From: Acidovorax sp. 1608163
GTDB taxonomy: Bacteria; Pseudomonadota; Gammaproteobacteria; Burkholderiales; Burkholderiaceae_C
NCBI RefSeq assembly: GCF_003669015.1
Contig: NZ_CP033069.1
Location: forward strand, 2,800,501-2,864,500
Direction: 5' to 3'
DNA length: 64,000 nt
The notes under the pieces were generated by a model. It worked only from the letters and a program-made list of their open reading frames with translations. It was not told the DNA's origin and searched no databases. Shown here one piece after another: positions 40,763 to 62,679 of the stretch. The first letter of the stretch is position 1. Every line of letters starts with the position of its first letter. The position numbers and the translations under genes were made by a program.

Positions 40763-40838
40763 CATAGACCAATGAAGGTCTTGTACTGGCGGCAGGCACC
40801 CAACGGCGGGTGAATGCAGCCAAGGAGCCTCAGGCTCC
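40763..40838 (+). ncRNA. ANTAR-target leader RNA of nrtA (twin hexaloop hairpins)
   Basis: Hairpin 1: AGACC-AATGAA-GGTCT (40766-40781). Hairpin 2: CACCC-AACGGC-GGGTG (40797-40812). Both loops have six bases with A first and G fourth, the known recognition features of ANTAR proteins. A third stem GGAGCC-TCA-GGCTCC (40824-40838) follows and leads into the terminator. NasT binding is expected to favour read-through into nrtA. Confidence 0.88.
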
Positions 40839-40847
40839 ACCCAGGAC

Positions 40848-40913
40848 AAAGGCGTCCCCACCCTTGCAACGTGCTGCCCCGGCGGCCGTGCAAGGCGTGA
40901 GGACGCCTTTTTT
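40848..40913 (+). terminator. Leader terminator before nrtA
   Basis: AAAGGCGTCC (40848-40857) pairs with GGACGCCTTT (40901-40910), with an inner CCTTGCA/TGCAAGG stem, and ends in a T tract. It is placed between the ANTAR hairpins and the nrtA start, so it is the attenuator controlled by NasT. Confidence 0.92.
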
Positions 40914-40948
40914 GTTTTCTTCACCGACTTGCCCTTGAGGGATGTGCC

Positions 40949-42193
40949 ATGACCGATTTGTTGAAAACCAGCCTCCACCGCCGCACCGTGCTGCAAGCGG
41001 CCACCGTGGGCGCCGTGGGTGTCAGCCCCGCACTGCGTGCGCTTGTCCACGCCCAGGGGTCGGATGCGCCTGAGAAGAAAGAGGTCAAGATCGGTTTTAT
41101 CCCGCTGACCGACTGCGCCAGCGTGGTGATGGCCTCGGTGCTGGGCATCGACAAGAAGTACGGCGTCACCATCATCCCCACCAAGGAAGCCAGCTGGGCC
41201 GGTGTGCGCGACAAGCTGGTCAACGGCGAGCTGGACTTTGCCCACGTGCTGTATGGCCTGGTGTATGGCGTGCACCTGGGTGTGAGCGGCCCCAAGAAAG
41301 ACATGGCCGTGCTGATGAACCTGAACCACAACGGCCAGGCCATCACGCTGTCTAAAAAGCTGGCGGACAAGGGTGCCGTGAACGGCGCCGGGCTGGCCAA
41401 GCTGATGGCCAGCGAAAAGCGCGAATACACCTTTGCCCAGACCTTCCCCACCGGCACGCACGCCATGTGGCTGTATTACTGGCTGGCCGCGCATGGCATT
41501 GACCCGATGAAGGACGCCAAGGTCATCACCGTGCCCCCACCGCAAATGGTGGCCAACATGCGCGTGGGCAACATGGACGGCTTTTGCGTGGGTGAGCCCT
41601 GGAACCAGCGCGCCATCATGGACGGCATCGGGGTCACGGCCAGCACCACACAAGCCATCTGGCAAGACCACCCCGAGAAGGTGCTGGGCACCACGGCAGA
41701 GTTTGCGCAAAAGTACCCCAACACCGCCCGCGCCGTGACAGCCGCCATCCTGGAAGCCAGCCGCTGGATCGACGAGGGCCTGGCCAACAAGAACAAGATG
41801 GCCGAAACCATTGCGGGCAAGGCCTATGTGAACACCAGTGTGGACGCGATCAACCAGCGCATCCTGGGCCGCTACCAGGACGGCATGGGCAAGAGCTGGG
41901 ACGACCCGAACCACATGAAGTTCTACAACGACGGCGCAGTGAACTTCCCCTACCTGTCCGACGGCATGTGGTTCCTGACGCAGCACAAGCGCTGGGGCCT
42001 GCTCAAGGACCACCCCGACTACGCGGGCGTGGCCAAGGCCATCAACCGGATCGATCTGTACAAGCAGGCCGCCACTGCGTCCAAAACCCCCCTGCCCAAG
42101 AGCGACACGCGCAGCCACAAGCTGATCGACGGCGTGGTGTGGGACGGCAAGGACCCCAAGAAGTACGCCGACGGCTTCAAGATCAAGGCCTGA
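40949..42193 (+). CDS. nrtA: Nitrate ABC transporter substrate-binding protein
   Basis: Periplasmic nitrate-binding protein of the NrtA/CmpA family, 414 residues. A twin-arginine type signal (LHRRTVLQAATVGAVGVSPAL) argues for export as a folded protein, and excludes it being the cytoplasmic sensor NasS. Blocks KIGFIPLTDCASVVMASVLGI, GELDFAHVLYGLVYGVHLG, FPTGTHAMWLYYWLAAHGIDP and GNMDGFCVGEPWN are characteristic. A GAGGGA ribosome site precedes ATG 40949. It is first in the nrtABC operon behind a sigma-54 promoter and an ANTAR-controlled terminator. Confidence 0.93.
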   Translation: MTDLLKTSLHRRTVLQAATVGAVGVSPALRALVHAQGSDAPEKKEVKIGFIPLTDCASVVMASVLGIDKKYGVTIIPTKEASWAGVRDKLVNGELDFAHVLYGLVYGVHLGVSGPKKDMAVLMNLNHNGQAITLSKKLADKGAVNGAGLAKLMASEKREYTFAQTFPTGTHAMWLYYWLAAHGIDPMKDAKVITVPPPQMVANMRVGNMDGFCVGEPWNQRAIMDGIGVTASTTQAIWQDHPEKVLGTTAEFAQKYPNTARAVTAAILEASRWIDEGLANKNKMAETIAGKAYVNTSVDAINQRILGRYQDGMGKSWDDPNHMKFYNDGAVNFPYLSDGMWFLTQHKRWGLLKDHPDYAGVAKAINRIDLYKQAATASKTPLPKSDTRSHKLIDGVVWDGKDPKKYADGFKIKA

Positions 42194-42258
42194 AGCCCAC
42201 CCCCTTCATCGCAACACCCACGCCCCGCCCTCCCCCACGTTGAAACCAGGAGATCGCC

Positions 42259-43209
42259 ATGGTCAGTGCTGTTTTTCACACCCCGCTGGACGCCGCGCCC
42301 CACGCGGACAAGCCCGCTACAAACTCCATAGCGCCTAGCGCTTTATCCATGAGCGCTACAGCCCAAAACACCTCTAAGCCCATGGCCTCGGCCCCCACCA
42401 AGGCCACTGGCCGCGACATGGCGGCGTGGTCGCGCAACTTCTGGATGGCGGTGCTTCCACCCGCCTGCGGCGTTGCGCTGCTGCTGGCGGTCTGGTCGAT
42501 GGTGTCCGTCTCCACAGGCAAGAGCATCCCCAGCCCGCTGGAGACCTGGGGCCAGGCGGTGGAGGTGTTCAGCAACCCCTTCTACCGCAATGGCCCCAAC
42601 GACCAGGGCGTGGGCTGGAACGTGCTGATGAGCCTGCAGCGCGTGGCCGTGGGCTTTGGGCTGGCGGCGCTGGTGGGCATTCCGGCCGGGTTTGTCATCG
42701 GGCGCTTCAACTTCCTGTCGCGCATGTTCAACCCGCTCATCAGCCTGCTGCGCCCCGTGTCGCCCCTGGCCTGGTTGCCCATTGGCCTGCTGGTGTTCAA
42801 GGGCGCCAACCCGGCTGCCATCTGGACCATCTTCATCTGCTCCATCTGGCCCATGGTCATCAACACTGCGGTGGGCGTGCAGCGCGTGCCGCAGGACTAC
42901 ATGAACGTGGCCCGTGTGCTGCAACTGTCGGAGTGGAAGATCGCCACCAAGATCCTGTTCCCCGCCGTGCTGCCCTACATGCTCACCGGCATCCGTCTGG
43001 CCGTTGGCACCGCGTGGCTGGTGATCGTGGCGGCCGAGATGCTCACGGGCGGCGTAGGCATCGGCTTTTGGGTGTGGGACGAGTGGAACAACCTGAACGT
43101 CAAGAACATCATCATCGCCATCTTCGTGATCGGCATCGTCGGGCTGGTGCTGGAGTACGCACTCATCAAGCTGGCCACCGCCTTCACGTTTGAAGAGGTC
43201 AAAACTTGA
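42259..43209 (+). CDS. nrtB: Nitrate ABC transporter permease
   Basis: Inner-membrane permease of 316 residues, NrtB/CmpB type, with about six helices and the EAA-loop region around PQDYMNVARVLQLSEWKIATKILFPAVLPY. Residues 1-60 form a long Ala/Ser/Thr-rich cytoplasmic lead not needed for the fold; part of it (about residues 20-34) is encoded by an inserted copy of the dispersed repeat. AGGAG lies six bases before ATG 42259. It operates with nrtA and the ATPase downstream. Confidence 0.93.
   Translation: MVSAVFHTPLDAAPHADKPATNSIAPSALSMSATAQNTSKPMASAPTKATGRDMAAWSRNFWMAVLPPACGVALLLAVWSMVSVSTGKSIPSPLETWGQAVEVFSNPFYRNGPNDQGVGWNVLMSLQRVAVGFGLAALVGIPAGFVIGRFNFLSRMFNPLISLLRPVSPLAWLPIGLLVFKGANPAAIWTIFICSIWPMVINTAVGVQRVPQDYMNVARVLQLSEWKIATKILFPAVLPYMLTGIRLAVGTAWLVIVAAEMLTGGVGIGFWVWDEWNNLNVKNIIIAIFVIGIVGLVLEYALIKLATAFTFEEVKT
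42315..42361 (-). repeat. Dispersed repeat copy G inside nrtB
   Basis: In reverse orientation GCTA-spacer-ATAGC-GCC-TAGCGCT-TTATCCATG-AGCGCTA reproduces the full family, including the hairpin. It remains in frame and codes for part of the N-terminal extension of NrtB. Confidence 0.75.
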
Positions 43210-43247
43210 CCCACCCCTGAGCGCCGCGCCATCGGCGCATCACCCCC

Positions 43248-43275
43248 CCGTGGCCCGGCAAAGCCGGCTCCACGG
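43248..43275. repeat. Hairpin between nrtB and nrtC
   Basis: CCGTGG / CCACGG outer arms and CCGGC / GCCGG inner arms form a strong GC-rich stem-loop with an AAA loop and no following T tract. It may stabilise the nrtAB part of the transcript. Confidence 0.55.
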
Positions 43276-43303
43276 TGGTCCTCGGAAAAACCAGGAGCTC
43301 CTC

Positions 43304-44119
43304 ATGCATACCTCTCTCACCACCAAGTTCATCGAAATCCAAGGCGTGGAGCAAACGTTCAAAACCGCCAAGGGGCTTTTCCCGGCGCTGAAGGGCATCG
43401 ACCTGACTATTGCGAAAGGCGAGTTCGTGGCGCTCATCGGGCACTCGGGCTGCGGCAAATCCACACTGCTGAACCTGATTGCAGGCCTCACCACCCCCAC
43501 CAACGGGGTGCTGATCTGCGCCAACAAAGAGATCAAGGGCCCCGGCCCTGAGCGCGCGGTGGTGTTCCAGAACCATTCACTGCTGCCCTGGCTCACGTGC
43601 TTTGACAACATCTACCTGGCGGTGGAGCGCGTGTTTGGTGGCAAGGAAAACATGGCCCAGCTCCAGGCCCGCACCGACGCCGCGCTGGCCCTGGTGGGCC
43701 TGACGCACGCAGGCCAAAAGCGCCCCGGCGAAATATCGGGCGGCATGAAGCAGCGCGTGGGCATTGCCCGGGCGCTCTCCATGGAACCCCAGGTGCTGCT
43801 GATGGACGAGCCCTTTGGCGCGCTGGACGCCCTGACCCGCGCCAAGCTGCAAGACGAGCTGCTGGAGATTGTGGCCCGCACCCAAAGCACCGTGGTCATG
43901 GTGACGCACGACGTGGACGAGGCCGTGCTGCTGTCCGACAAGATCGTGATGATGACCAATGGCCCCGCCGCCACCATTGGCGAGGTGCTGCACGTGGACT
44001 TGCCCCGCCCGCGCAAGCGCGTGGAGCTGGCCGAAGACCCGCACTACGTGCAGTACCGCAAGGCGGTGATCGACTTTTTGTACACACGTCAAACCCACGT
44101 GGAAAAAACCGCTGCCTGA
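43304..44119 (+). CDS. nrtC: Nitrate ABC transporter ATPase
   Basis: ATPase of 271 residues of the NrtC/NrtD/SsuB group. Walker A is GHSGCGKST, the NrtC/D-type segment AVVFQNHSLLPWLTCFDNI holds the Q-loop, the signature is ISGGMKQRVGIARAL, Walker B is VLLMDEPFGALD and the switch VTHD. It has no C-terminal binding-protein domain, so by length it is NrtD-like; the family name nrtC is used loosely. ATG 43304 has AGGAG six bases upstream. It powers nitrate uptake with nrtA and nrtB. Confidence 0.92.
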   Translation: MHTSLTTKFIEIQGVEQTFKTAKGLFPALKGIDLTIAKGEFVALIGHSGCGKSTLLNLIAGLTTPTNGVLICANKEIKGPGPERAVVFQNHSLLPWLTCFDNIYLAVERVFGGKENMAQLQARTDAALALVGLTHAGQKRPGEISGGMKQRVGIARALSMEPQVLLMDEPFGALDALTRAKLQDELLEIVARTQSTVVMVTHDVDEAVLLSDKIVMMTNGPAATIGEVLHVDLPRPRKRVELAEDPHYVQYRKAVIDFLYTRQTHVEKTAA

Positions 44120-44213
44120 GCGTGCACCTCGCCCCATCCCCCTGGGGCGCGCCTAAACTGAATTGCGGACTCTGCAACGTGAGGGTCGCCAAATCAACAC
44201 GGGAACCACGAGG

Positions 44214-46154
44214 ATGAATGCACTGATTGCACGCTTGAAACTCTGGCAAAAATTTGCACTGGTCTGCGCAGCCTGCATGCTGCTGGCCGTTACCGCATCG
44301 GCTTTGGTGCTGCAAGCTCGCTATGAAGCCCTGCGCACTGCACGGGCGGAACAAGCGGGGCTGAAGCCCGCAGAGCAGGTGCTGCGACTCATCCAGCTGA
44401 CCCAACAGCACCGAGGGCTGTCCAACGGAGCGCTCTCGGGCAACACCCAATTCATCGCGCAGCGCGAGAAAAAGCAGGCCGAGGTGCAAGACCGCCTGAA
44501 ACAGGCACTGCAAGCCACCCAGGCACTGGCCGCCAGCGCCAACGACACCAAGCTGTCGCCCCTGACAGCGCAGATTGAAAATGATTGGCAGGCGCTCGCC
44601 GCCCAGGTCGCGGCCCCCGGCGCCAAGGCGGCAGACAGCTTTCGCAACCACACCGCCCTTGTCGCGCGGCAACTGGTGCTTCTCAACCAGGTGCTGGACA
44701 CATCCACACTGACCCTGGACCCCGAGGCATCCAGTTACTACCTGATGTCGGGCACGCTCGACCAATTGCCCGCGCTGACGGAGTCACTCGGCCAGGCGCG
44801 GGCGGTGGGCGCCGGCGCACTCACCCGCCGCGATCTGGGCAACGCCGAGCGGGCCGCCTTGTTGGCAGCCGTCACTGCGGCGCGCCTACAGAACGACAAG
44901 GCGCAAGCACTGCTCAGCCGCGCTGGCGAAGCCGATGCAGCCGTACAACGCACGCTGGCCAGCGCGCAGAAAAAAGCGGCGGACGACGCCAGCCGCGCAC
45001 TGCAGTCCATTCAGGAGCAACTGCTGCAACCCACCGAGCTGAGCCACCCGCCCCAGGCCTACTTCGCCAGCCTGACCGAGGCCATCGACACCCAGTTCGC
45101 CCTCATCGCCAAAGGCTATGAAACCCTGGACACCATGCTGGAAGAGCGCGTGGCGCAGGCACAGCGCTTTATGTGGTGGTTCAGCGCCGCGCTGCTGGCC
45201 GCCCTGGTGGCGACCCTGTGGGTGAGCCTGGCCACGGTGCGCCAGGCGCAAGCCGCCGTGCAGCAAACCCTGGGCGCAGCCCGGGCCCTGGCCGTGGGGG
45301 ACCTGGGCCAGCCGCTGCACCTGAACACCCACGACGAGTTTGGTGACATCGCCCGCGCCCTGAACCAATCCACCCGCGCCCTGGCGGACACAGTGCAAGG
45401 CATTCAGCAGTCCATCGCCACGGTGCACACGGCATCGGTCGAGATTGCCGCAGGCACGCAGGACCTGAGCGCGCGCACCGAGCAACAGGCCAGCGCGCTG
45501 GAGCAAACCGCCGCCTCGATGGAAACCCTGAACCAGACGGTGAGCGCCAACAGCCAAAGCGCCAGCCAGGCCCATGCCCTGGCCCGCCAGGCCAGCGAAG
45601 AGGCCGAGCACGGGGGCGCGCAGGTGCAAAAGGTGGTGGCGTTCATGCAGGGCATCCACGAAAGCTCGCGCAAGATCGCAGACATCACCGGGGTGATCGA
45701 CTCCATTGCGTTCCAGACCAACATCCTGGCGCTGAATGCGGCGGTGGAAGCCGCCCGCGCAGGCGAGCAAGGGCGCGGGTTTGCAGTGGTGGCCAGCGAG
45801 GTGCGCAGCCTGGCCCAGCGCTCAGCCCAGGCCGCCCATGAGATCAAGGCACTCATCACCGATTCGGTGCAGCGCATGGACGAAGGCTCTCGCCAGGCCG
45901 ACAGCGCGGGCCAGGCCATGCAAGGCATCGTGCAGGCGATTGCCCGGGTCAGCGGCATCATGGCCGAGATCAGCAGCGCCAGCACCGAGCAGGCGTCGGG
46001 CATCTCGCAGGTGCTGGAGGCGGTGGAGCACATGGACCGCATGACCCAGCAAAACGCGGCCCTGGTGGAGGAAACCGCCGCTGCATCACAGGGGCTGCGC
46101 TCGCAGGCCGATCAGGTCAGCAGCGCGATGGCGCATTTCCGCCTGCAGCCTTGA
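44214..46154 (+). CDS. Methyl-accepting chemotaxis protein with NIT-like (nitrate/nitrite) sensor domain
   Basis: Transmembrane chemoreceptor of 646 residues. A helix at about 10-30 and a second near 320-340 bracket a long periplasmic helical domain, which contains [19 protein letters not shown], resembling the conserved core of the NIT nitrate/nitrite-sensing domain. A HAMP segment ([29 protein letters not shown]) and a complete signalling domain with [33 protein letters not shown] follow. Placement directly after nrtABC supports nitrate as ligand. ATG 44214 is used; the frame to 44163 begins with TTG and lacks a signal. Confidence 0.9.
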
Positions 46155-46198
46155 CGCCGCAGCGGGCGGCCCCGTGCGCTGCGCGCCGGGGGCGGGCA

Positions 46199-46639
46199 TT
46201 AACGGTGGCCGGTGATGTACTGCTCCAGCTGCTCGATGATGAATTTCTGCTCAGAGATGATGTCCTTGACCAGATCACCGATGGAGATCATGCCCACGAG
46301 CTGGTCTGCCTCCACCACCGGCAGGTGGCGCAGGCGGTTGTTGCTCATGATCTGCATGCACTGCTCGCTGGTCTGGTGCGGTCGCACAAACAGCACGTCA
46401 GGCGTCATCACATCGCGCACCTGGGTGGCGGCCGATGTGCGGCCCAGCAGCGCGATCTTGCGGGCGTAGTCACGCTCGGTGAAGATGCCCACGATGCGGT
46501 CATCGTCCTGTGTCACCAGCAGGGCTCCAATGCCCTTTTCGGCCATCAGGCGCAAGGCGTCCAGCACCGAATCAGCGGGGCGTACGGTGTACACGGTGGT
46601 GTCGGGTTTGGATTTCAGGATTTCGGCAACAACGGTCAT
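46199..46639 (-). CDS. CBS-domain pair protein
   Basis: Soluble 146-residue protein consisting of two CBS domains (about 12-65 and 78-135), with VRPADSVLDALRLMAEKGIGALLV and VRPHQTSEQCMQIMSNNRLRHLPVVE. Such proteins bind adenine nucleotides and act as energy or redox sensors; the partner is unknown. ATG 46639 has GGGAGG just upstream on the minus strand; the longer frame to 46690 is unlikely. It is convergent with the chemoreceptor gene. Confidence 0.9.
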   Translation of the reverse strand: MTVVAEILKSKPDTTVYTVRPADSVLDALRLMAEKGIGALLVTQDDDRIVGIFTERDYARKIALLGRTSAATQVRDVMTPDVLFVRPHQTSEQCMQIMSNNRLRHLPVVEADQLVGMISIGDLVKDIISEQKFIIEQLEQYITGHR

Positions 46640-46863
46640 GGCAACCTCCCGGTAAAGCGCAAAGCACGATGGATGAACCGACCTGTTCAAGCCCCTTCAG
46701 GGCTCTACCCAAAAAGAATTGAGCAGGCTTCAGAACATTTCAGCCCATCTGTGCGTTGAATGCAACCGTAGATGCCTTGATGAGACGTCTGGTTACCAAG
46801 CCAGGCGCTGGTTGCGCGGCAGGCCTGCGCCCGGCATCCACCATGACAGACCGTGAAATGCAC

Positions 46864-46942
46864 AAAAGCCAGCGGCCCAAGGGCTGCTGGCTTTTGCGTG
46901 GAGGGTTTGGGCTACGCCGTCAGGGTGGAAGCCCACCCTGAC
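46864..46942 (-). terminator. Hairpin pair ending the TRAP/gluconate operon
   Basis: In the 322-base gap between the CBS and dctP genes two stems lie just after the dctP stop: GTCAGGGTGG-AAGC-CCACCCTGAC (46919-46942), then a 15-bp stem (46864-46878 with 46881-46895) edged by AAAA and TTTT. The latter is an intrinsic terminator usable from both directions. I see no gene in the rest of the gap. Confidence 0.85.
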
Positions 46943-46961
46943 CCTAATCCCTGCCCTGCGC

Positions 46962-47981
46962 TCACTTGGCGGCGCGTGCTTGCGCCACAGCGCCCTGCAC
47001 TTCCTTCCACAAGCCTTCGCCCACGTTGGCGGCAATGCTGGCGTTCACAGCACCCAGTTTTTCGCGCATACGGTTGGCTTCTGCTGCGGGCAGTTCATTG
47101 ACCTGCATGCCCTTACCCTTCAAGTCCGCCAGCGCCTTGTCGGCTTCGGCACGGGTGTCCTGGCGTTCAAAGTCGCGGCTCTTCTTGGCAGCGTCCAGCA
47201 GCACCTTTTGCTCGGCCTTCGACAGACCATCCCAATACTTCTTGCTCACCAGCACGATCCAGGGGCTGTAGACGTGGTTGGTGACGGTGAGGTACTTCTG
47301 CACCTCATAGAACTTGCTCGACAAGATGGTGTTGAAGGGGTTCTCCTGGCCATCCACGGTGTTGGTTTCCAGCGCGGTGAACAGTTCAGAGAACGGCAGC
47401 GGCACGGCGTTGGCGCCCAGGGTCTTGAAGCTGTCGAGGAAGACGTTGTTCTGCATCACGCGCAGCTTGATGCCGTTCATGTCCTCCAGCTTGGCCACGG
47501 GACGTTTGCTGTTGGTGAGGTTGCGAAAGCCGTTCTCCCAATACACCAGGCCCACCAGGCCTTTTTCCTGCAGCTTGTCCATCACCTTCTGGCCCACCGG
47601 GCCGTCCAGCACCACATCGGCTTCCTTGGTGTTGTTGAACAGAAAGGGGGTGTCCCAGATGGCCATTTCTTTGGTGATGCCCACCAGCGTGGCGGTCGAT
47701 CCCACCATCATCTCTTGCGCGCCGCCAATCAGCGCCTGCTGCATTTGCAAATCAGAGCCCAGCGCGGCCGCGCCAATGGCACGCACGCGCATCTTGCCGC
47801 CCGATGCCTTTTCGACCTCCTCGGCAAACAGCTTGGTGGCGCGGCCCTGGTTGGAGACTTCGTTGAGCCCGTAACCAAAGCGGATGATGCGCGGCTTGAA
47901 GTCTTGCGCAGCGGCCTGGAACGAGCAGGCCAGCGCAGCCACCGACAAGGCGGCCAAAAGGGTGCGACGGAAGGTTTTCAT
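46962..47981 (-). CDS. dctP: TRAP transporter substrate-binding protein, DctP family
   Basis: Periplasmic binding protein of 339 residues with a Sec signal (RRTLLAALSVAALACSFQAA, cleavage near AAAQ). IRFGYGLNEVSNQGRATKLFAEEVEKASGGKMRV and the ligand-carboxylate region GIKLRVMQNNVFLDSFKTLGANAVPLPFSELFTALETNTVDGQENP contain the conserved Arg and the signature NTVDGQEN. In the operon with gluconokinase its ligand is probably gluconate or a related sugar acid. ATG 47981 is the signal-peptide start. Confidence 0.93.
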   Translation of the reverse strand: MKTFRRTLLAALSVAALACSFQAAAQDFKPRIIRFGYGLNEVSNQGRATKLFAEEVEKASGGKMRVRAIGAAALGSDLQMQQALIGGAQEMMVGSTATLVGITKEMAIWDTPFLFNNTKEADVVLDGPVGQKVMDKLQEKGLVGLVYWENGFRNLTNSKRPVAKLEDMNGIKLRVMQNNVFLDSFKTLGANAVPLPFSELFTALETNTVDGQENPFNTILSSKFYEVQKYLTVTNHVYSPWIVLVSKKYWDGLSKAEQKVLLDAAKKSRDFERQDTRAEADKALADLKGKGMQVNELPAAEANRMREKLGAVNASIAANVGEGLWKEVQGAVAQARAAK

Positions 47982-48122
47982 GGTTGTCTCCATTGTGGTG
48001 AGGGGTGAGGAACAGAGGAAAGGAATCAAAGGACATAGACGACCGATACCGACGCGGTCTAGGCCAGTGCCCCCGCGCAAGGGCCTACGCCGGCCGCACC
48101 GCCCCGCCGCGCTGGGGGCGTC

Positions 48123-48157
48123 CTCCTCCCGCATTGCGCAGCAATGCGAGAGAGGGG
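48123..48157. repeat. Hairpin repeat between dctP and dctM
   Basis: Perfect 7-bp stem GCATTGC-GCA-GCAATGC (48131-48147) inside imperfect CTCC/GGAG-like flanks. It lies in the 205-base dctM-dctP spacer and may protect the upstream message or adjust expression of the abundant binding protein relative to the membrane subunits. Confidence 0.55.
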
Positions 48158-48186
48158 TGAAGGCGCGAAGCGACTCAGGGGGTGCT

Positions 48187-49488: not shown

Positions 49489-50027
49489 CACTCCACCTCC
49501 GCACCGTGGCCCAGGTCCAGCGGCTTGCGCAGCACCAGTTCCACCAAAGCCATCACGCCAATCGCCAGCGCACACAACAAGGCAGGCAACGGCAGCAGGG
49601 CCGACGAGTACCCCAGCACCACCGAATGGCTGCCCATGCCCACCACCACCTGCTGCCAGGCACCCCAGCCCAACATCACACAAGCTGCAATCACCAGCAG
49701 CCGAATCACGGCCGTGAGCAGCCCAAACGCCAGCGGCTTGCGGGCCAGCAGACCGGCCAGGCTGGTAAAGGCCATGTGCTCACCGGCGGGGTAAGCCGCC
49801 GCAGCACCGATGAACACCATCCAGACAAACAGCAGGCGCGACAGCTCTTCGCTGGCGGGAATGCCACTGCCAAAGCCGTAGCGCAGCACCACGTTAGAGA
49901 AAACAGCCACGGCCATGGTGCCCAGGCACAAGGCCATCAGCACGCTGGCGACGCGGGTGAAGCGGCCGTTGGCCGCGCGGCCCTCACCCTGTGGAGTGGT
50001 GGGGGTGGAAGGAGATGCGGCGCTCAT
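49488..50027 (-). CDS. dctQ: TRAP transporter small permease, DctQ family
   Basis: Small membrane subunit of 179 residues with four helices. VFSNVVLRYGFGSGIPASEELSRLLFVWMVFIGAA is the DctQ signature. Its start overlaps the gluconokinase stop as ATGA, tying the transporter to that enzyme in one operon. Confidence 0.93.
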   Translation of the reverse strand: MSAASPSTPTTPQGEGRAANGRFTRVASVLMALCLGTMAVAVFSNVVLRYGFGSGIPASEELSRLLFVWMVFIGAAAAYPAGEHMAFTSLAGLLARKPLAFGLLTAVIRLLVIAACVMLGWGAWQQVVVGMGSHSVVLGYSSALLPLPALLCALAIGVMALVELVLRKPLDLGHGAEVE

Positions 50028-55557: not shown

Positions 55558-56012
55558 ATCCCACCAGCGGATTTGGCTCTGTGAGCCATCCAGCTACCGC
55601 AGACAAGCCCATGCCCTACGGGGAGTACGCGTTCGAGTCAACCAGCTGCGCAGGGACTGTGACGATGACAATCACCTATCCACAAGCCCTGCCAGCCGGG
55701 GTGCAATTTTGGAAGTACGGTCCTGCTACAGCCACAGTGGGCGGTGTAGTGGCTGCGTCCACATGGTTCCAGCTCAGCGGTGTCAACCTCAGCGGTGACC
55801 GCAAGACGGTGACCTACAGCATTACGGATAACGGAGTGGGTGACTCCGACGCAGCGGTAGGCAGCATTCGCGACCCATTTGCGCCAGTGGTAATTCCCGT
55901 CATGAGCGATCCCTCCTCTATCCCGGTGGATGCCCCATGGGCTCTGGTGTCGCTGTCGATCGTGCTGGGGTTGCTGGGTGTCCGCTGGCAACAACGCCAA
56001 GCACGGGGATAA
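55558..56012 (+). pseudogene. Out-of-frame C-terminal part of the surface protein with IPTL-CTERM-like signal
   Basis: The shifted frame continues the protein: a small conserved domain (SSCTLNPTSGFGSV, TMTITYPQALPAGVQFWKYGP, VTYSITDNGVGDSDAAVGSI) followed by SIPVDAPWALVSLSIVLGLLG, a hydrophobic helix and a basic tail (RWQQRQARG). This is the architecture of IPTL-CTERM proteins, which are sorted and processed at the cell envelope by an exosortase/archaeosortase-like system. The canonical IPTL letters are altered to IPVD. A hairpin GCGCCGAC/GTCGGCGC (56020-56057) follows the stop. Confidence 0.8.
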
Positions 56013-56211
56013 ATACACAGCGCCGACGGATCGATACCCAAAGTCGACTGTCGGCGCGACCACACCGGAACCAGCCACAACCCTCCCCTGCTCTAAGACG
56101 GATGATGCTGCTGCGTTCAGGGAAAGAAATAACCGAGCATTGGCTTTTATCGCTACAAGACGCTGAGGCCTCTGCGATGCGCCACAGGAGGCAAAGTGGG
56201 CACACAAATTC

Positions 56212-56300
56212 CGCAGACCTTGATGCAAGGGGCGACGGCCTGGTAACAACTCACTGAATCTGGAGTTTGAATTGTCTGAGCGCGAAAGCGGCTTCACAGA
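56212..56300 (+). pseudogene. Decayed remnant of a lacI-family 3' end
   Basis: TTGATGCAAGG followed by ...AATCTGGAGTTTGAATTG... parallels the last 80 bases of the intact regulator at 51660-51739 (CTGATGCAAGG, ...AACCTGGGGTTTGAATTG). One extra base breaks the frame. Translation of the second part gives NSLNLEFELSERES against NSVNLGFELTVREST. The rest of 56013-56330 holds only the hairpin after the surface-protein gene. Confidence 0.7.
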
Positions 56301-56330
56301 CACTCGCCAATTGAGCGGGGAAGTGAAATC

Positions 56331-56732
56331 CTATAGAGGCGCACCAGAGCCACGCCCCTCCAACAACGACCGGAGTGTGCTGATCGCTGCGTGCTGCACG
56401 GGCAATACAGCAAGCGCCAGAACGGGAGACAAAAACGCATCCCAAAACAGCGAAGTGACAGCGGCCAGGCCCCAAACAAAGCCGACGAGCAACAGAGCCG
56501 CCACGCATTGCGCCAGTGGTGACCTCTTTCGGATCAGGAGCAAACCAGCCCCCAGGACGGCGACCAGGCCCCACCCGATGAAGGGGTTGCTGGTCAAACG
56601 ATAAGGCATGGTTTTGGGCTTCCAGTCAACCACGAGCCCCCCACTGTGCAGCAAGAGAATGGCGGCCAGCATGACGACCACCGCCAACAAGACGGCAGAA
56701 CCTAGGTGATTGAGTTGCTTCATGGCTCGCAT
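56331..56732 (-). CDS. Hypothetical membrane protein
   Basis: I do not recognise this 133-residue protein. It has about four hydrophobic segments (SAVLLAVVVMLAAILLL; FIGWGLVAVLGAGLLLI; CVAALLLVGFVWGLAAV; FLSPVLALAVLPV) with short basic loops, consistent with a small inner-membrane protein. Start may be 56732 or the ATG at 56723; neither has a good ribosome site. It borders the transferred segment on its left. Confidence 0.5.
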   Translation of the reverse strand: MRAMKQLNHLGSAVLLAVVVMLAAILLLHSGGLVVDWKPKTMPYRLTSNPFIGWGLVAVLGAGLLLIRKRSPLAQCVAALLLVGFVWGLAAVTSLFWDAFLSPVLALAVLPVQHAAISTLRSLLEGRGSGAPL

Positions 56733-56796
56733 GCTGGCATTGTGTGCTGAACCCTGCGCAAAGGTCGCCAGCCCAGGCGCTTACAGCCCCCAGCCC

Positions 56797-58446
56797 TTAA
56801 GCCGCAGCCAACGCCCTCTGGCCTGAATCTGCCTTCATGGACTTGCGCAGCGCCACAGCATCCACGCTGTGTGCGCTGGACGATGCATCGATGCGGAACA
56901 CCTGCACCGTCTCTGAGACAGACTTGGCTTGGATGCTCAATTGCATGGCAGATGCGGCATTTTCTTCAACCAGTGCTGCGTTTTGCTGGGTGATGGTGTC
57001 CAACTGCGCCACGGCAGAGTTCACTTGCGAGATGCCACTGAGCTGCTCGCTGGAAGCGCCGTGGATTTCGCCCATCAGTGCATTCACCCGGCGCACAAGG
57101 TCCAGTGACTCAGACATGGTTTTTTGCGCCATGTCCGTCTTCACGTTGCCTTCTTGCACCTTGTTAGCCGAGTCGTCAATCAATTGCCGAATCTCTTTGG
57201 CCGCTGACAGGGTGCGGTGCGACAGGCTGCGCACCTCCGAAGCCACCACAGCAAAGCCTCTGCCCTGCTCGCCCGCACGGGCGGCCTCCACCGCAGCGTT
57301 CAGCGCAAGGATATTGGTCTGGAAGGCAATGCTGTCGATCAACTGCGTGATCTCGCTGATACGCCCGGAAGCGGATTGGATCTGCTTCATCGTAGCTGCC
57401 ACGCTGTTGACGACTTCGCTGCTGTGCTCAGCCACCGAAGTGGCTTGGGTGGCCAACTCGGTACCACGGCGGGCAGACTCGGCCGTTTGCCGCACCGTGC
57501 CGGTGATTTCCTCCATCGAAGCCGCCGTCTGCTCCAGGTTGCTCGCCTGGGATTCGGTGCGCGCTGACAGGTCCTGGTTGCCTTGCGCGATTTCCTGGGT
57601 GGACAACTGCATGCGCTCGGCCTCCTGGCGTGCATCGCGCACGATGGAGAGCAGGTTCACATTCAGTTGGGACAAGGCTTTTTGCAGGTGACCGGCCGTG
57701 TCATCGCGCGACGCTTGAATCTTCTGGGTCAGGTCCCCCGCCGCCATGCGGTTGGCCCACAGCAGCATCTGGTTCAGGGGGGCAATCGTCACGTTGTGCA
57801 TGTAGGCGGCCGCTCCCACGGCCAGGACCAGAACACCCAGCCAGGCCAAGCCAGACACCAACGACAGGCTGTGCCCCCCTGCCGATGCAGCCAGCCAGGC
57901 GGCAAGCACCACAGCGCCCATGCACACCAGCATCTTGCCCAGCGCGCCCATGCGCAGCAGCTCGGTGGTGCGCCCCCAAAGGTTGTCTTTGATCAGGCGC
58001 CCGGCACGCAGCTTGTGCACCAAGGCCCCGGCCTCTTTCTCGGCTCGCATGGTCTTGTACAGCTGCTCGGCCTGCTGGATCTGCTCGCGGGTGGCTTCGG
58101 TGCGCACCGACATGTAGCCCACGGGCTGGTCCCCCTGCATGAGGGGCGTGACATTGGCCATCACCCAGTAGTAGGTGCCGTTTTTGCGGCGGTTCTTCAC
58201 GGCGGCGGACCAGGGGATGCCCTTGGCGATGGTGTCCCACATGTCGCGAAAGGCCTCTTCCGGCATTTCAGGGTGGCGGATCATGTTGTGGGGCTGGCCC
58301 AGCAACTCTTGCTTTTCGTAGCCACTGACCTCCACAAACATGGGGTTGCAGTAGAGGATGCGCCCCTTCAGATCGGTCGTCGAGACCAATGTCTCGCCTT
58401 TGGGAAAGGGGTACTCCTGAGAGACAACGGGCAGGTTCATTCGCAT
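56797..58446 (-). CDS. Aer-like PAS-domain methyl-accepting chemotaxis protein
   Basis: Energy or redox taxis receptor of 549 residues. The cytoplasmic PAS domain (about 20-125; LVSTTDLKGRILYCNPMFVEVSGYEKQELLGQPHNMIRHPEMPEEAF) closely follows the Aer pattern, then a pair of membrane helices (about 165-220), a HAMP segment (ANRMAAGDLTQKI) and the signalling domain with [42 protein letters not shown] is the expected cofactor. ATG 58446 has AGGAG six bases upstream. It is divergent from the narK operon. Confidence 0.93.
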   Translation of the reverse strand: MRMNLPVVSQEYPFPKGETLVSTTDLKGRILYCNPMFVEVSGYEKQELLGQPHNMIRHPEMPEEAFRDMWDTIAKGIPWSAAVKNRRKNGTYYWVMANVTPLMQGDQPVGYMSVRTEATREQIQQAEQLYKTMRAEKEAGALVHKLRAGRLIKDNLWGRTTELLRMGALGKMLVCMGAVVLAAWLAASAGGHSLSLVSGLAWLGVLVLAVGAAAYMHNVTIAPLNQMLLWANRMAAGDLTQKIQASRDDTAGHLQKALSQLNVNLLSIVRDARQEAERMQLSTQEIAQGNQDLSARTESQASNLEQTAASMEEITGTVRQTAESARRGTELATQATSVAEHSSEVVNSVAATMKQIQSASGRISEITQLIDSIAFQTNILALNAAVEAARAGEQGRGFAVVASEVRSLSHRTLSAAKEIRQLIDDSANKVQEGNVKTDMAQKTMSESLDLVRRVNALMGEIHGASSEQLSGISQVNSAVAQLDTITQQNAALVEENAASAMQLSIQAKSVSETVQVFRIDASSSAHSVDAVALRKSMKADSGQRALAAA

Positions 58447-58683
58447 AGATAACTCCTGAAAAGCCACTTCACGCCAACATGCCAGTGAACTCTCTGCTCA
58501 AGAGGCTGCTACCGCCCCGAACCAAGAGCACCGCCGCACGACCAGAATAAATGAAAAGAAATATTTGTTACATAACTATTTGAGCGGGTCAAAGCACAAA
58601 AAATACACTTTGCACCCGTTCCAAAATCACCTGTAACAAACAAATCATTTAAATCAATCAAAATTCATCGTACAACCCAAAGC

Positions 58684-58700
58684 TACACCAAACTGGTGCA
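58684..58700. promoter_or_regulatory. NtrC-like binding site upstream of narK
   Basis: TACACC-N5-GGTGCA matches the NtrC dyad at 11 of 12 positions; a half site TTGCACC lies at 58609-58615. It is about 70 bases upstream of the predicted start. The surrounding 58447-58760 interval is otherwise AT-rich with no gene. Confidence 0.68.
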
Positions 58701-58737
58701 AACCACCAACAAAAAGTAGCCAACACACTTCAATTCA

Positions 58738-58753
58738 TGGCATGCGGCTTGCT
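58738..58753 (+). promoter_or_regulatory. Sigma-54 promoter of narK
   Basis: TGGCAT (-24) and TTGCT (-12) with exact GG-N10-GC spacing (58739-58752). The predicted transcript begins about 58764, at the first base of ANTAR hairpin 1. Confidence 0.85.
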
Positions 58754-58763
58754 TGTGGTGTTT

Positions 58764-58812
58764 TGCAGCCAACGAAGGCTGCAGGTTGACCCGGTGCAAA
58801 GGCGGATTGGGT
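58764..58812 (+). ncRNA. ANTAR-target leader RNA of narK
   Basis: Hairpin 1: TGCAGCC-AACGAA-GGCTGCA (58764-58783), a perfect 7-bp stem. Hairpin 2: ACCCGGTGC-AAAGGC-GGATTGGGT (58789-58812), with two G-U pairs and one mismatch. Both loops have six bases with A first and G fourth. They are separated by five bases and followed by the terminator. Confidence 0.8.
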
Positions 58813-58824
58813 GAACAAGACGCA

Positions 58825-58886
58825 GGCGTCTTCGCGGTGCAAGGGCTGGAAGTGGATAGCCCAGAGACCGCGCAGGCGCCTTTTTT
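58825..58886 (+). terminator. Leader terminator before narK
   Basis: A 14-base arm at 58825-58838 pairs with 58867-58880 (one G-U, one mismatch), with an inner GGCT/AGCC stem, followed by six T. It lies between the ANTAR hairpins and narK, as in the nrtA and nirB leaders. Confidence 0.9.
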
Positions 58887-58960
58887 GTTTTTGACACGGG
58901 CAACACATGGGCTGCGCAGGCAGGCCACTGGCCCGTGGCACCTTTGCACAGGCGCGCTCC

Positions 58961-60175
58961 ATGCTCCAGTTCCGCGAATTCCTCAAGTCGGGTCACGCCC
59001 CCACGCTGTGGTCCTCGTTTCTTTACTTCGGCTTCTCGTGCGCCGTGTGGGTCATCAACGGGGCCATGGCCCCGTTCATCCGGGACGACTTCCAACTCAC
59101 CCCCACCCAAATGGGGCTGATGCTGTCGCTGCCTATCTTTGCAGGCGCGCTGATGCGGTTCCCGCTGGGCATCCTGGCGCAATACATCGGCCGCAAGCGC
59201 GCCACGCTGGTCGAGATGGCGGGCATTGCCCTGGCCATGGCTTTTGGCTACTTCTTCGTGCACACCTATAACGACCTGCTGGCCATGGGTGTGCTGCTGG
59301 GGGTGGCAGGCGCCAGTTTTGGGGTGGCGCTGTCGCTGGGCTCGGGCTCGTTTCCGCCGCGCTACAAGGGCCTGGCCATGGGCATTGTGGGTGCAGGCAA
59401 TGTGGGCACGGCCGTGGCGGCGCTGCTGGCGCCCGCCCTCGCCCAAAAGTTTGGCTGGCAAACGGTGTACGGGTTTGCGGCGATCAGCGTGGCGATTCCG
59501 GCCATCGTGATGGCGGTGTACGCCCAAGAGCCCCCAGACCTGGACGCCCACGCCACCCTGCGCGAGCACGTGGCCTGCCTGTTTGAAAAAGACGGCTGGG
59601 CTTTCAGCCTGATTTATGCAGTGACGTTTGGGGGCTTCATTGGGCTCACCACCTTCTTGCCCAGCTACTTCAATGGGCAGTTTGGCGTCAGCAAAGTGCA
59701 GGCCGGGCAGCTGACCATGTTGGCCGCCTTTTTGGGCGCAGCGCTGCGGGTGTTTGGCGGCTGGCTGTCAGACCACTGGGGCGGCGTGAACACCCTCACG
59801 GGCGTGCTGTACATCACCGCCGTCAGTCTGGTGCTGTGCGGGTTTGCGCAGGAGTCTTTGCCCGTCACGGTGCTGCTGTTTCTGGTGTGCTTTGCCGCAC
59901 TGGGCGCAGGCAATGGGGCCCTCTTCCAACTGGTGCCCTTGCGCTGGCCTTTGTCCACGGCGGTGGCGGGCTCCATGATTGGCGAAATTGGCGCACTGGG
60001 CGGCGGCCTGATCCCGAACGCCATGGGCTTTTCCAAGCAATACAGCGGCAGCTACCTGTGGGGCTTTGTGTCCATCGCGGTGTGCGCAGCGGCCATGCTG
60101 GTGCTGCTGCGGGTGATGCAGATCCGCTGGACCAGAACATGGGCAGAGAAAGGTGGCCGTGCGCGCAGCGCATGA
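58961..60175 (+). CDS. narK: Nitrate/nitrite MFS transporter, NarK/NasA family
   Basis: Major facilitator of 404 residues with about twelve helices. The nitrate signatures are visible: GVAGASFGVALSLGSGSFPPRYKGLAMGIVGAGNVGTA near helix 5 and GAGNGALFQLVP near helix 11, with Arg in GALMRFPLGIL. It is preceded by a leader of the assimilatory (NasT) type, so an assimilatory NasA role is more likely than respiratory export. ATG 58961 (MLQFREFLKSGHAPTLW) is the family start; ATG 58907 adds 18 unrelated residues. Its 3' end contains one copy of a 20-base direct repeat. Confidence 0.9.
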   Translation: MLQFREFLKSGHAPTLWSSFLYFGFSCAVWVINGAMAPFIRDDFQLTPTQMGLMLSLPIFAGALMRFPLGILAQYIGRKRATLVEMAGIALAMAFGYFFVHTYNDLLAMGVLLGVAGASFGVALSLGSGSFPPRYKGLAMGIVGAGNVGTAVAALLAPALAQKFGWQTVYGFAAISVAIPAIVMAVYAQEPPDLDAHATLREHVACLFEKDGWAFSLIYAVTFGGFIGLTTFLPSYFNGQFGVSKVQAGQLTMLAAFLGAALRVFGGWLSDHWGGVNTLTGVLYITAVSLVLCGFAQESLPVTVLLFLVCFAALGAGNGALFQLVPLRWPLSTAVAGSMIGEIGALGGGLIPNAMGFSKQYSGSYLWGFVSIAVCAAAMLVLLRVMQIRWTRTWAEKGGRARSA

Positions 60176-60480
60176 CCGGCGCAAGCCGATGAGCGCGCAA
60201 GCGCTCGCCACATTTCCAGCAAAAGGGCGGGCGGGCACGCAGTGCCTGAGCTGGCAGAGCCAGCCAACGCATAGCGTTGCCCGCACTTTCGCTAGAAAGG
60301 GGGACGCGCGCGCAACGCGTGAGCGGTGCAGCCGTTATTGATCCGGCCTGAACCTACTTGAACCGTTCACGCTGAGCTTGTCGAAGCGCCGCGCAAGGTT
60401 TCGACAAGCTCAACCCGAACGGATATCTCAAGCTCAAAGAGGCCTGCTGAATAAAAGGGCGGCCGTGCGCGCAGCGCATG
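60155..60480 (+). repeat. Direct repeat pair of 20 bases around the narK 3' end
   Basis: GGCCGTGCGCGCAGCGCATG occurs at 60155-60174, overlapping the narK stop region, and identically at 60461-60480. Both are preceded by AAAGG-like bases. The intervening DNA holds other inverted repeats and no gene; the pair looks like a REP-type or duplication boundary. Confidence 0.75.
60363..60422. repeat. TGAGCTTGTCGAA-type inverted repeat
   Basis: Arms 60363-60385 and 60400-60422 pair with three mismatches; the inner TGAGCTTGTCGAA / TTCGACAAGCTCA is perfect. This palindrome is a common intergenic repeat in many Proteobacteria. It lies between narK and the convergent kinase gene. Confidence 0.85.
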
Positions 60481-60521
60481 GCGGGTTTCACCAAAAGCCG
60501 ACTACACAAATTGCATGAAAC

Positions 60522-60572
60522 ATGCTGCTAGCGCTTTATCTATAAGCGCTAGCAGCTATATTTTCAATAGCA
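60522..60572 (+). repeat. Dispersed repeat, copy H
   Basis: The best copy: GCTGCTAGCGCTT and AAGCGCTAGCAGC form a perfect 13-bp stem around TATCTAT, followed by TATATTTTCAATAGCA. It ends five bases before the stop of the kinase gene, in position to act as its transcription end. Confidence 0.85.
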
Positions 60573-60576
60573 CCCC

Positions 60577-62361
60577 TCAACGCGGCAAAAACAGAAGCCA
60601 GTAAACCAACAACAAATTCACCAGCACGCTCACCGCCAACGCAATCTTCCACACCGCAGTCGCGTCGCGTTGCAGCAAGGACTGCGCACCGCCCAGGGGC
60701 ATGGGCCGTGAGGCGCCGCGCTCCAGCGCCAGCAGCATCTCCTCGGCGGTTTCAAAGCGTTGGGTGCGCTGACGGGCCACGGCCTTGAGGGCGATGTGGT
60801 CGAGCCAGATGGGCACCTGCGGGTTGTGGCGGCTGGGGGCCTGCGGGTCGCGGTGGTAACGGCCCAGTTGGTGGGCCACCACCTCGCCGTAGGGCAGGCG
60901 GCCATGGCTGAGCAATTGGTACAGCGTCACCCCCAGCGCAAACAAATCACTGCCTGCATCGGGCAGTTGGCCCTGTGTGTCGCTGCTGCGCTCGTAGCCC
61001 GCCCACTGCTCGGGGTTCATGTAGCTGGGCGTGCCCGCGTGCAGGCGGCGTGTGGCCTCGGGCTCGCGGCCGCTCAAGGCCACGCCCAGGTCCAGCACGC
61101 GCAGCACACCGTCGTCGCCCAGGTGCAAGTTGTCGGGCTTGATGTCGCGGTGCACCACGCCCTGGCGGTGCAGCCAGCCCAGCAACTGGGCCGCCTGCGT
61201 GACAGCGCCCACCGCCTGCGCCACGCTCAGCGGTTGGCCGTGGGCCCGGTGGCGCAACCAGTCGCCCAGCGTGCGGCCCGCGTGCCATTCATACAGCAGG
61301 TAAAAGCCGCTGGCATCGCGCGCCGCAGCGCCGGGTGCCGGGCGCAAGGGCCAGTCCACCAGCCGGGCCAGGTGCGCACCGGCCGCGCCCGTTTGCATGC
61401 GCCGGGCCACCCAGGCCTCGTGGGCCAGCGTGGCGCGCTCTTGCACATCGTGGGCGCGCTGGGGCAGCAGGGTCTTGAGGGCGTACAGGCGCCCTGCCCC
61501 ATGTCCTTGCGCAGAAGCCTCGACCTGGTACACGCGGTGCACACCGTTGTCGGCCACCACGGCGCGCACGGTCAGGCCATCCACCGTGTCGCCCACCTTC
61601 AAAAGCGGCAGCACCGGCAGGGCCAGGGCGCGGCGCGATTCGTCTTGCAGCGTGCTCTCCAGCACGCCCTTGACCTGAATCACCATGGCAGTGAGGTTGT
61701 CGGTGCTGCCGCTGCGCAGCGCGGCGTCCACCAGCTGCTCGCTCAGCACCTGGGCAGGCTGGGCGGCCTGCAGCAGGGCCTGCAACTGGCGCTCGGGCAC
61801 AAAGCCATGCACCCCGTCTGACAGCAGCGCAAACAGGTCGCCGCTTTGCACCTCGCCCTGGCTGTAGTCCACCACCACATGGTCGTCCAGCCCCATGGCG
61901 CGCGTGAGCTGGTGCGCCATGTCGCGCTGGGCGATGACGTGGTCGGCCGTCAGCCGCTGCAAGCGCCCATCGCGCAGCAAATACGCCCGCGTGTCACCCA
62001 CATGCGCCAGGGTGTAGGACTGGCCCCGCAGCACCAGCGCGGTGATCGTGGTGAGGCCCACTGCGGGCTGGCGGCGCCGGTTCATCGCGGCCAGCCAGCT
62101 GTTGTGGGCGGCCAAGATGCGGTCCAGCGCCACGGTGGTGTCCCAGGTGGGGGGCGTGGCGAAGTAGTCCGTCACCAGCGCATTGACACTGGTCTGCGCG
62201 GCTTCACGCCCATGGCCACCGGTGCTCACACCATCGGCAATGGCGGCAATGGCGCCGCGCGCGCGCTCATGCCCACGGCCCTCGACCAGGGCGGCAAAGT
62301 CTTCATTGATGTCCTTGCGCCCCTGCAGGGACACCTGGCCAAAGTCCAGTTCAAAGCTCAT
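60577..62361 (-). CDS. Bifunctional PP2C phosphatase / Ser-Thr protein kinase, membrane-anchored
   Basis: A 594-residue fusion: PP2C phosphatase (about 1-235; KDINEDFAAL, AAIADGVSTGGHG, AHVGDTRAYLL, LLSDGVHGFV, GSTDNLTAMVI), then a Hanks-type kinase (about 275-560; ALK lysine, HRDIKPDNLHL catalytic loop, LDLGVAL in place of DFG, TPSYMNPEQW), then one C-terminal helix (IALAVSVLVNLLLVYWLLF). Similar fusions lie beside nirB and nasA in Pseudomonas, so a link to nitrate assimilation is conserved, though its targets are unknown. ATG 62361 starts the phosphatase domain; the frame to 62541 runs through the nirB control region. It is divergent from nirB. Confidence 0.92.
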   Translation of the reverse strand: MSFELDFGQVSLQGRKDINEDFAALVEGRGHERARGAIAAIADGVSTGGHGREAAQTSVNALVTDYFATPPTWDTTVALDRILAAHNSWLAAMNRRRQPAVGLTTITALVLRGQSYTLAHVGDTRAYLLRDGRLQRLTADHVIAQRDMAHQLTRAMGLDDHVVVDYSQGEVQSGDLFALLSDGVHGFVPERQLQALLQAAQPAQVLSEQLVDAALRSGSTDNLTAMVIQVKGVLESTLQDESRRALALPVLPLLKVGDTVDGLTVRAVVADNGVHRVYQVEASAQGHGAGRLYALKTLLPQRAHDVQERATLAHEAWVARRMQTGAAGAHLARLVDWPLRPAPGAAARDASGFYLLYEWHAGRTLGDWLRHRAHGQPLSVAQAVGAVTQAAQLLGWLHRQGVVHRDIKPDNLHLGDDGVLRVLDLGVALSGREPEATRRLHAGTPSYMNPEQWAGYERSSDTQGQLPDAGSDLFALGVTLYQLLSHGRLPYGEVVAHQLGRYHRDPQAPSRHNPQVPIWLDHIALKAVARQRTQRFETAEEMLLALERGASRPMPLGGAQSLLQRDATAVWKIALAVSVLVNLLLVYWLLFLPR

Positions 62362-62526
62362 GCACCACGGGCACGCAGGTTTCGTGCCCAACGTGGTGCA
62401 CGCGGCGGCGAACAAGGCTGCAAGCCGGGTGCCGCCTGGAGCGCGCCCCGGCTGGGTGCGGCCCGCCAACCGGATCGCCCCCGCCAGCCCGCAGCGCCTG
62501 CACCAGGCATGCCCCACAGCGGTGCA
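62361..62526. promoter_or_regulatory. Cluster of NtrC-like half sites upstream of nirB
   Basis: TGCACC at 62361-62366 and GGTGCA at 62395-62400 bracket an inverted repeat (TGCACCAC/GTGGTGCA with inner GGGCACG/CGTGCCC). A second pair is TGCACC at 62499-62504 and GGTGCA at 62521-62526. They lie about 35-200 bases upstream of the predicted nirB start, and the first touches the kinase start codon. Spacings differ from the standard N5 dyad, so NtrC binding is uncertain. Confidence 0.5.
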
Positions 62527-62533
62527 CACAAGC

Positions 62534-62549
62534 TGGCACACGCATTGCT
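62534..62549 (+). promoter_or_regulatory. Sigma-54 promoter of nirB
   Basis: TGGCAC (-24) and TTGCT (-12) with exact GG-N10-GC spacing (62535-62548). Predicted transcription start about 62560, just ahead of ANTAR hairpin 1. Confidence 0.87.
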
Positions 62550-62559
62550 TAACACCAGC

Positions 62560-62603
62560 AACGGCCCAAGCGGGTCGCGCAATTCACCGGTGCAACGGCG
62601 CAC
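62560..62603 (+). ncRNA. ANTAR-target leader RNA of nirB
   Basis: Hairpin 2 is clear: GTGC-AACGGC-GCAC (62590-62603), the same loop as in the nrtA leader. Hairpin 1 is CGGCC-CAAGCG-GGTCG (62562-62577) with one G-U pair; its loop keeps G at position four but has C at position one. The order promoter, hairpin 1, hairpin 2, terminator, gene matches the nrtA and narK leaders. Confidence 0.78.
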
Positions 62604-62621
62604 AGAAGGGTTGCACGGACG

Positions 62622-62679
62622 AAGGCGTCCCCACATGCGGTTTCGAGGTCCGAAGCAGCATCGTGTGGACGCCTTTTTT
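62622..62679 (+). terminator. Leader terminator before nirB
   Basis: AAGGCGTCC (62622-62630) pairs with GGACGCCTT (62667-62675), extended by CACA/TGTG across a two-base bulge, and ends in a T tract. The GGCGTCC/GGACGCC core is the same as in the nrtA terminator. Confidence 0.92.

Follow-up and report, generated by a model that had tools for sequence, protein, structure and literature searches.

A probable sigma54-driven nitrate-assimilation regulon under ANTAR antitermination in Acidovorax sp. 1608163

How could three nitrate-assimilation operons that lie near one another answer to a single regulator? The question is raised by the window analysed here, a stretch of 64,000 nucleotides from the 5.05-Mb genome of Acidovorax sp. 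1608163 (contig NZ_CP033069.1, positions 2,800,501 to 2,864,500; coordinates below are window positions on the forward strand unless stated otherwise), in which the operons nrtABC, narK and nirB open with homologous leaders (40737-40913, 58738-58886 and 62534-62679, respectively) and a nasT gene precedes the first of them. Judged from sequence, these operons very probably form a sigma54-driven regulon under ANTAR antitermination, a reading carried by the homology of the leaders, covariation in two of their hairpins, the mutual exclusion of a third hairpin and the terminator in folding, the finding of exactly three leaders and a single ANTAR protein genome-wide, and the tendency of the two to occur together in relatives. 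An initial annotation of the window had proposed ANTAR control of the three operons and was largely upheld, being partly confirmed as to sequence and partly supported as to interpretation.

Each leader begins with a match to TGGCAYN5TTGCW, which we take to be the consensus of sigma54 promoters and which served as the search pattern, giving sigma54-type promoters for nrtABC (40737..40752), narK (58738..58753) and nirB (62534..62549). The window holds exactly these three matches, a number reached in 1 of 100 shuffles, and the whole genome holds 25 as against 4 for the reversed pattern. The initial annotation had described the leaders and left out the promoters preceding them. A further sigma54-like site (TGGCGTAAATCTTGCT, 39819-39834) ends 12 bases before the start codon of nasT, a distance that would leave almost no leader for this gene. 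Candidate NtrC boxes near the promoters (40600, 58684 and 62510) and before nasT (39794) are not claimed, since such patterns were overall no commoner than in shuffles.

Downstream of the promoter element each leader holds three hairpins, H1, H2 and H3, and an intrinsic terminator. In the nrtA leader, H1 (40766..40781, loop AATGAA) and H2 (40797..40812, loop AACGGC) are followed by H3 (40844..40857, GGAC-AAAGGC-GTCC) and a terminator (40848..40913, U run 40908-40913) that excludes H3, the minimum free energy (MFE) of the leader being -84.8 kcal/mol as against -70.8 kcal/mol with H3 forced, a difference of 14.0. The narK leader is built likewise, with H1 at 58765..58782 (loop AACGAA), H2 at 58789..58812 (loop AAAGGC, with a G-G mismatch just below the loop-closing pair), H3 at 58818..58831 (AGAC-GCAGGC-GTCT) and the terminator at 58824..58886 (U run 58881-58886; -64.7 vs -54.6 kcal/mol, difference 10.1). 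So is the nirB leader, with H1 at 62562..62577, H2 at 62590..62603 (loop AACGGC), H3 at 62617..62630 (GGAC-GAAGGC-GTCC) and the terminator at 62621..62679 (U run 62674-62679; -57.7 vs -47.3 kcal/mol, difference 10.4). The terminator takes its 5' arm from the 3' arm of H3 and part of the H3 loop, which makes the two structures mutually exclusive; in all three leaders H1 and H2 fold identically in either state and the terminator state is favoured.

The targets of EutV, NasR and AmiR have been described as two hairpins, P1 and P2, with A in the first and G in the fourth position of both loops (A1/G4) and with an overlap between P2 and the terminator (PMC3369931, PMC3369936; these and the articles below are cited from excerpts). 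The same architecture is found here with H2 as P1 and H3 as P2, in that the H2 hexaloop is A1/G4 in three of three window leaders, the H3 loop has G at the fourth position in three of three, and H3 both overlaps and excludes the terminator, the departures being that the P2 loop may open with either purine rather than with A only, and that the H2 of narK is mismatched. The initial annotation had rightly placed an intrinsic terminator ahead of each start codon but counted two hairpins per leader, overlooking the six-base-loop H3 in all three, and its assignment of H1 and H2 as the ANTAR target gives way to H2 and H3, which match the published dual hairpin instead. The six loops it listed are all present as letters, with A first in five and G fourth in six; the CAAGCG hexaloop assigned to nirB H1 is lost on folding, where the MFE structure has a 6-bp stem with the tetraloop AAGC, and an A1/G4 hexaloop is likewise missing at that place from a related nirB leader (L055). 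The nrtA leaders of Acidovorax contain an extra hairpin in the linker between H2 and H3 (40813-40843 in the window; also in relatives such as L013 and L044), this linker being 31 to 36 bases long in them vs a median of 15 over the leaders, and the spacing rule that has been reported for EutV could be tested on this natural variation.

Comparison with relatives indicates that the nrtA, narK and nirB leaders are homologous RNA switches. When H1, H2 and H3 were aligned across 36 leaders (3 from the window and 33 from relatives), 92.8% of cells were paired as against 32-47% in slid-structure controls, 9 of the 14 pairs had changes on both sides, and the covariation score was 0.311 compared with 0.128 in shuffles, none of 500 scoring as high. 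H3 varied in only one of its four pairs, so its support comes mainly from exclusivity and conservation; its pairing is kept through changes in other leaders (AGAC/GTCT, GAAC/GTTC and CGAC/GTCG). A leave-out covariance model (R2), whose 29 training leaders all belonged to nrtA in other genomes and included none of the window and none of narK or nirB, found exactly three leaders in the whole genome, the nrtA, narK and nirB set, with scores of 83.3, 63.7 and 46.9 bits. The initial annotation had proposed a covariance search as its check, and the outcome bears out its grouping of the three. A fourth candidate target (L125, 20.2 bits) was rejected as it lies within the frame of an ABC1-kinase-like protein. 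The leader model had matches in 81 of 300 genomes sampled from the order at E 0.01 and in 34 of 369 sampled from the class at E 0.001, the window's own genome included in each case.

A wider set of 93 non-redundant leaders was found by a pattern of promoter, H3 and terminator; two of its members look like false finds, and the narK leader of the window falls outside it, since the match of its terminator arm is inexact. Upstream A1/G4 hexaloop hairpins numbered one in 42 of these leaders, two in 43 and none in 8, and letter shuffles of the same stretches gave one such hairpin in about 3%. The 3' arm of H3 was paired within the terminator by MFE in 91 of the 93 (median difference on forcing H3, 12.9 kcal/mol), a G at the fourth position of the H3 loop and a matching terminator arm having been search conditions for the set.

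Searched against Rfam at gathering scores, the window gave no match. Below gathering, P11 (RF00625) and narK RNA (RF03032) aligned to two of the leaders, those of nrtA and nirB, over a span running from the promoter element as far as GGACAAAGGCGTCC, with E values of 0.015 to 8.7, all far below the gathering scores (at best 27.8 vs 70 bits for P11 and 26 vs 43.2 bits for narK RNA). These two families are probably the same leader type, and no statement identifying them with it was found among the titles or abstracts of the literature search.

The presumed antiterminator is encoded by nasT (39847..40473), the product of which combines an ANTAR domain (PF03861, 73.3 bits) with a receiver-like N-terminal domain below the Pfam cut-off, the composition of a NasT. 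A domain search found no NIT domain in it, the mark of the one-component regulator NasR. The protein shares 45% identity with a NasT-type protein of Caballeronia and 41% with one of Paracoccus, its closest named relatives are from Acidovorax (97% identity), and matches to it occurred in 84 of 120 family genomes at E 1e-10, those to the ANTAR domain only included. As it is the one ANTAR match of the whole genome, the predicted control of all three leaders in trans is well supported, and the earlier proposal of a regulator with three targets inside 23 kb stands.

Leader and regulator also occur together in relatives. Among 80 of the 120 family genomes, those also searched with the leader model, 47 had both a leader and an ANTAR match, 11 an ANTAR match only, 2 a leader only and 20 neither (Fisher p 3.8e-9), although this co-occurrence is partly built in because the training leaders of the model had been collected beside NasT. 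Further points weigh against the regulon as proposed: 11 of the 58 ANTAR-bearing genomes gave no leader, and the two leaders lacking an ANTAR match lie in G027 (L260, 3191-3296) and G079 (L261, 4088-4185); the transcript starts used in folding were assumed from the promoter positions; and the H3 loop opens with A in the nrtA leader and with G in those of narK and nirB, position 1 being A in 76 of the 93 leaders and A or G in 92. The L261 leader is followed by a major facilitator superfamily (MFS) transporter gene, and L260 stops at the contig end.

In the proposed mechanism the nascent leader of each operon would by default fold into its intrinsic terminator. Low nitrogen would start transcription at the sigma54-type promoters, presumably by way of NtrC. 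According to the successive-binding model for EutV (PMC8934654), H1 and H2 would serve for recruitment and H3 for antitermination. Free or active NasT may thus be recruited by H2, and in some leaders also by H1 where its loop fits, and would then stabilise H3 as it emerges, blocking the terminator. Read-through into nrtABC, narK, or nirB and its downstream genes is the direction of control that we infer, with nitrate as the presumed signal. Each operon would pass two gates, the first set by sigma54 and nitrogen at initiation and the second by NasT after initiation.

Where the nitrate signal would enter is less clear-cut. In Paracoccus, NasT is held by NasS, a relative of NrtA that lacks a signal peptide, and is let go once NasS binds nitrate or nitrite (PMC3795266, PMC5424462). 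A cytoplasmic NasS without an export signal was sought in the whole genome and not found, a point on which the initial annotation was silent, and the search returned a single close match, NrtA (40949..42193; PF13379, 345 bits), which has a Tat-type (twin-arginine) N-terminus, the motif being called by eye and pattern without a signal predictor. For comparison, the gene directly behind nasT in each of the unannotated records L201 and L202 was assigned as nasS by its position and lack of a signal. The presumed NasS of Caballeronia matched NrtA at 49% identity and 393.6 bits with the next match at 25 bits, and the genome-wide PF13379 search gave 346.7 bits for NrtA and 70.6 bits for the next protein. 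NrtA is therefore the sole close NasS relative in the genome and occupies the place of NasS after nasT.

The lack of a recognisable NasS would fit a NasT that has no sensor and is always active or limited by its expression, the operons answering to nitrogen status alone. The sigma54-like site right before nasT agrees with this, as do sigma54 promoters predicted for the NasT protein family in beta- and gamma-proteobacteria (PMC12316311). Such an arrangement is possible if somewhat doubtful, as the receiver-like domain is conserved (68-95% protein identity in many family genomes), which suggests that a partner is still bound, and a constitutive antiterminator would render the three retained terminators pointless.

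Alternatively, NrtA could have a dual role in which the cytoplasmic protein, prior to export, holds NasT and releases it on nitrate. Its position is that of NasS, and it shares 48-49% identity with the presumed Caballeronia NasS, compared with only 33% between that protein and the presumed NasS of Paracoccus. A count was made, not reduced by genome and with the transporter judged by NrtB, of loci that had NasT no more than 3 kb upstream, an intact 5' end and 1 kb or more of downstream sequence: 88 had a Tat-type NrtA and an NrtB at least 55% identical to that of the window, and 6 loci from three genomes (G002, G040 and G082) had a signal-less NrtA homologue (61-70% identical), no such NrtB, and a second Tat-type NrtA (33-34% identical) with a divergent NrtB (31-41%) following. 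In a tree of 78 proteins, with bootstrap not settled, long branches and an unsure root, the signal-less proteins branched in an intermediate position, with NasS on one side and the Tat-NrtA clade on the other, and a single change of signal state was enough (98/98). That NrtA lost its signal repeatedly is accordingly unsupported, and the tree would fit either an old NasS that gave rise to NrtA or an NrtA that lost its signal. One switch also means that G002, G040 and G082 may simply retain a true NasS, and no NrtA column convincingly followed NasT versus NasR in what six well-supported independent pairs make a weak test. Such a dual role thus appears fairly unlikely. Its extension to Acidovorax and much of the family, in which the Tat precursor of NrtA would fold in the cytoplasm, hold NasT and free it on nitrate, with a signal-less protein serving only as sensor where the transporter is different, is unlikely.

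As to which hairpins NasT would contact, H1 is not constant among relatives. The H1 loop is of the GNRA type in five leaders (L019, L081, L084, L116 and L120), no H1 was seen in L109, the nrtA leader of L121, L142, L152, L153 and L196, and in L031, L035 and L041 the loop AACGGC belongs to a hairpin at the place of H1, that of H2 being less regular. On this comparison H1 is optional; what the leaders share is H3 and one or more upstream A1/G4 hairpins, a rule to which 8 of the 93 are exceptions. A target made of H1 and H2, opposing the terminator indirectly and without H3, could draw on the covariation of both hairpins and on their A1/G4 hexaloops in the nrtA and narK leaders of the window; it is very unlikely given the GNRA-type or missing H1 of several relatives and a near-invariant H3 that overlaps the terminator as the published P2 does (PMC3369936). 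A switch by some other RNA-binding protein or RNA, with NasT acting elsewhere, would account for the leader in 2 of the 22 family genomes that gave no ANTAR match and is highly improbable in view of the strong leader-ANTAR co-occurrence, the ANTAR-target loops and hairpin layout, and the NasT or NasR gene adjoining the nrtA leader in relatives.

The regulator beside the nrtA leader is not always NasT. In G020, G024 and G117 a NIT-ANTAR fusion, as in NasR, precedes the leader and nrtA at the same place. By BLAST score, distinct NrtA proteins were linked to NasT in 127 cases, to NasR in 26 and to neither in 21, and no regulator could be assigned at 23 of 204 NrtA loci. On a quick NrtA tree of 94 rows the regulator label changes 15 times, at least 6 of them via well-supported branches, indicating that NasT and NasR have been repeatedly swapped at this locus. 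The H3 loop AACGGC was present in 20 of 22 leaders beside NasR vs 3 of 116 beside NasT, where 88 of 116 had AAAGGC, and two upstream A1/G4 hairpins were seen in 51 of 116 beside NasT vs 0 of 22 beside NasR; Fisher p values for these trends ignore kinship, neither trend can reach 0.05 over five well-supported independent pairs, and the pattern gave no leader at 17 loci (13 NasT, 4 NasR). A NasR-specific P2 loop was rejected, as L141, L181, L190 and L192 in NasR genomes lack AACGGC, and it is more likely that a leader and its neighbouring regulator were inherited together.

Among the closest described systems, NasS-NasT of Paracoccus denitrificans, also known in Azotobacter, Pseudomonas and Bradyrhizobium, shares a NasT-type ANTAR protein, nitrate-assimilation operons and leaders with hairpins and a terminator (PMC3795266, PMC5424462, PMC6759348), NasT binding the nasA leader in Paracoccus (PMC3795266). 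It differs from the present locus, where a Tat-type NrtA stands in place of a cytoplasmic NasS that was not found, three operons have closely similar sigma54-type leaders, and the nrtA and narK leaders carry a third hexaloop hairpin. The nasF leader on which NasR acts in Klebsiella likewise has a pair of A1/G4 hexaloop hairpins, of which the second overlaps the terminator (PMC3369931, PMC3369936), and NIT-ANTAR proteins hold the same place in some relatives, whereas the window regulator has no NIT domain. The eut system of Enterococcus resembles the proposed regulon in that P1 recruits EutV, P2 excludes the terminator and one ANTAR protein has several targets (PMC3369931, PMC8934654), but it serves another pathway, has the kinase EutW as sensor, and no sigma54-type promoter element is reported in those excerpts. 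The mechanism is thus already known and the arrangement less usual, with sigma54-type leaders closely alike in three operons, a third hairpin in them, and a NasT for which no NasS was found; this arrangement is unreported in the titles or abstracts of the open-licence literature searched.

Behind nrtA lie nrtB (42259-43209) and the ATP-binding nrtC (to 44119), with TIGR01183 and TIGR01184 above their cut-offs, and narK (58907..60175) encodes a NarK-type MFS transporter (PF07690; TIGR00886 at 227.9 bits, below the cut-off of 311.7). The nirB gene (62722..64000) continues past the window end, and a Rieske protein and a molybdopterin oxidoreductase are encoded downstream of it beyond the window. 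Directly after nrtC, a chemoreceptor with a NIT domain (PF08376, 36 bits) is encoded at 44163-46154 and may be involved in nitrate taxis. Between narK and nirB a single protein with both PP2C phosphatase and Ser/Thr kinase domains is encoded (60577-62541, reverse strand). Similar palindromic repeats of the GCGCTTTATCNNNNAGCGCTA type occur at 40670-40697, 42329-42358 and 60524-60556, one of them within the nrtB reading frame, and an inverted repeat after narK (60357-60489) gave a sub-threshold match to Rfam AaHKsRNA41 (33 vs 97 bits).

One regulator and exactly three natural targets within 23 kb, together with many relatives that vary in upstream hairpins, loops and linkers, provide natural variants with which the use of P1 and P2 by ANTAR proteins, an open question (PMC8934654), becomes testable. 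That NasT and NasR have replaced each other repeatedly at one locus suggests that a single leader design can serve regulators whose sensors are quite different. The lack of a NasS would mean either a NasT without a nitrate sensor or a transport protein that doubles as one; if the latter were true, a single protein would be common to nitrate transport and gene control, and its rate of export would tune the switch.

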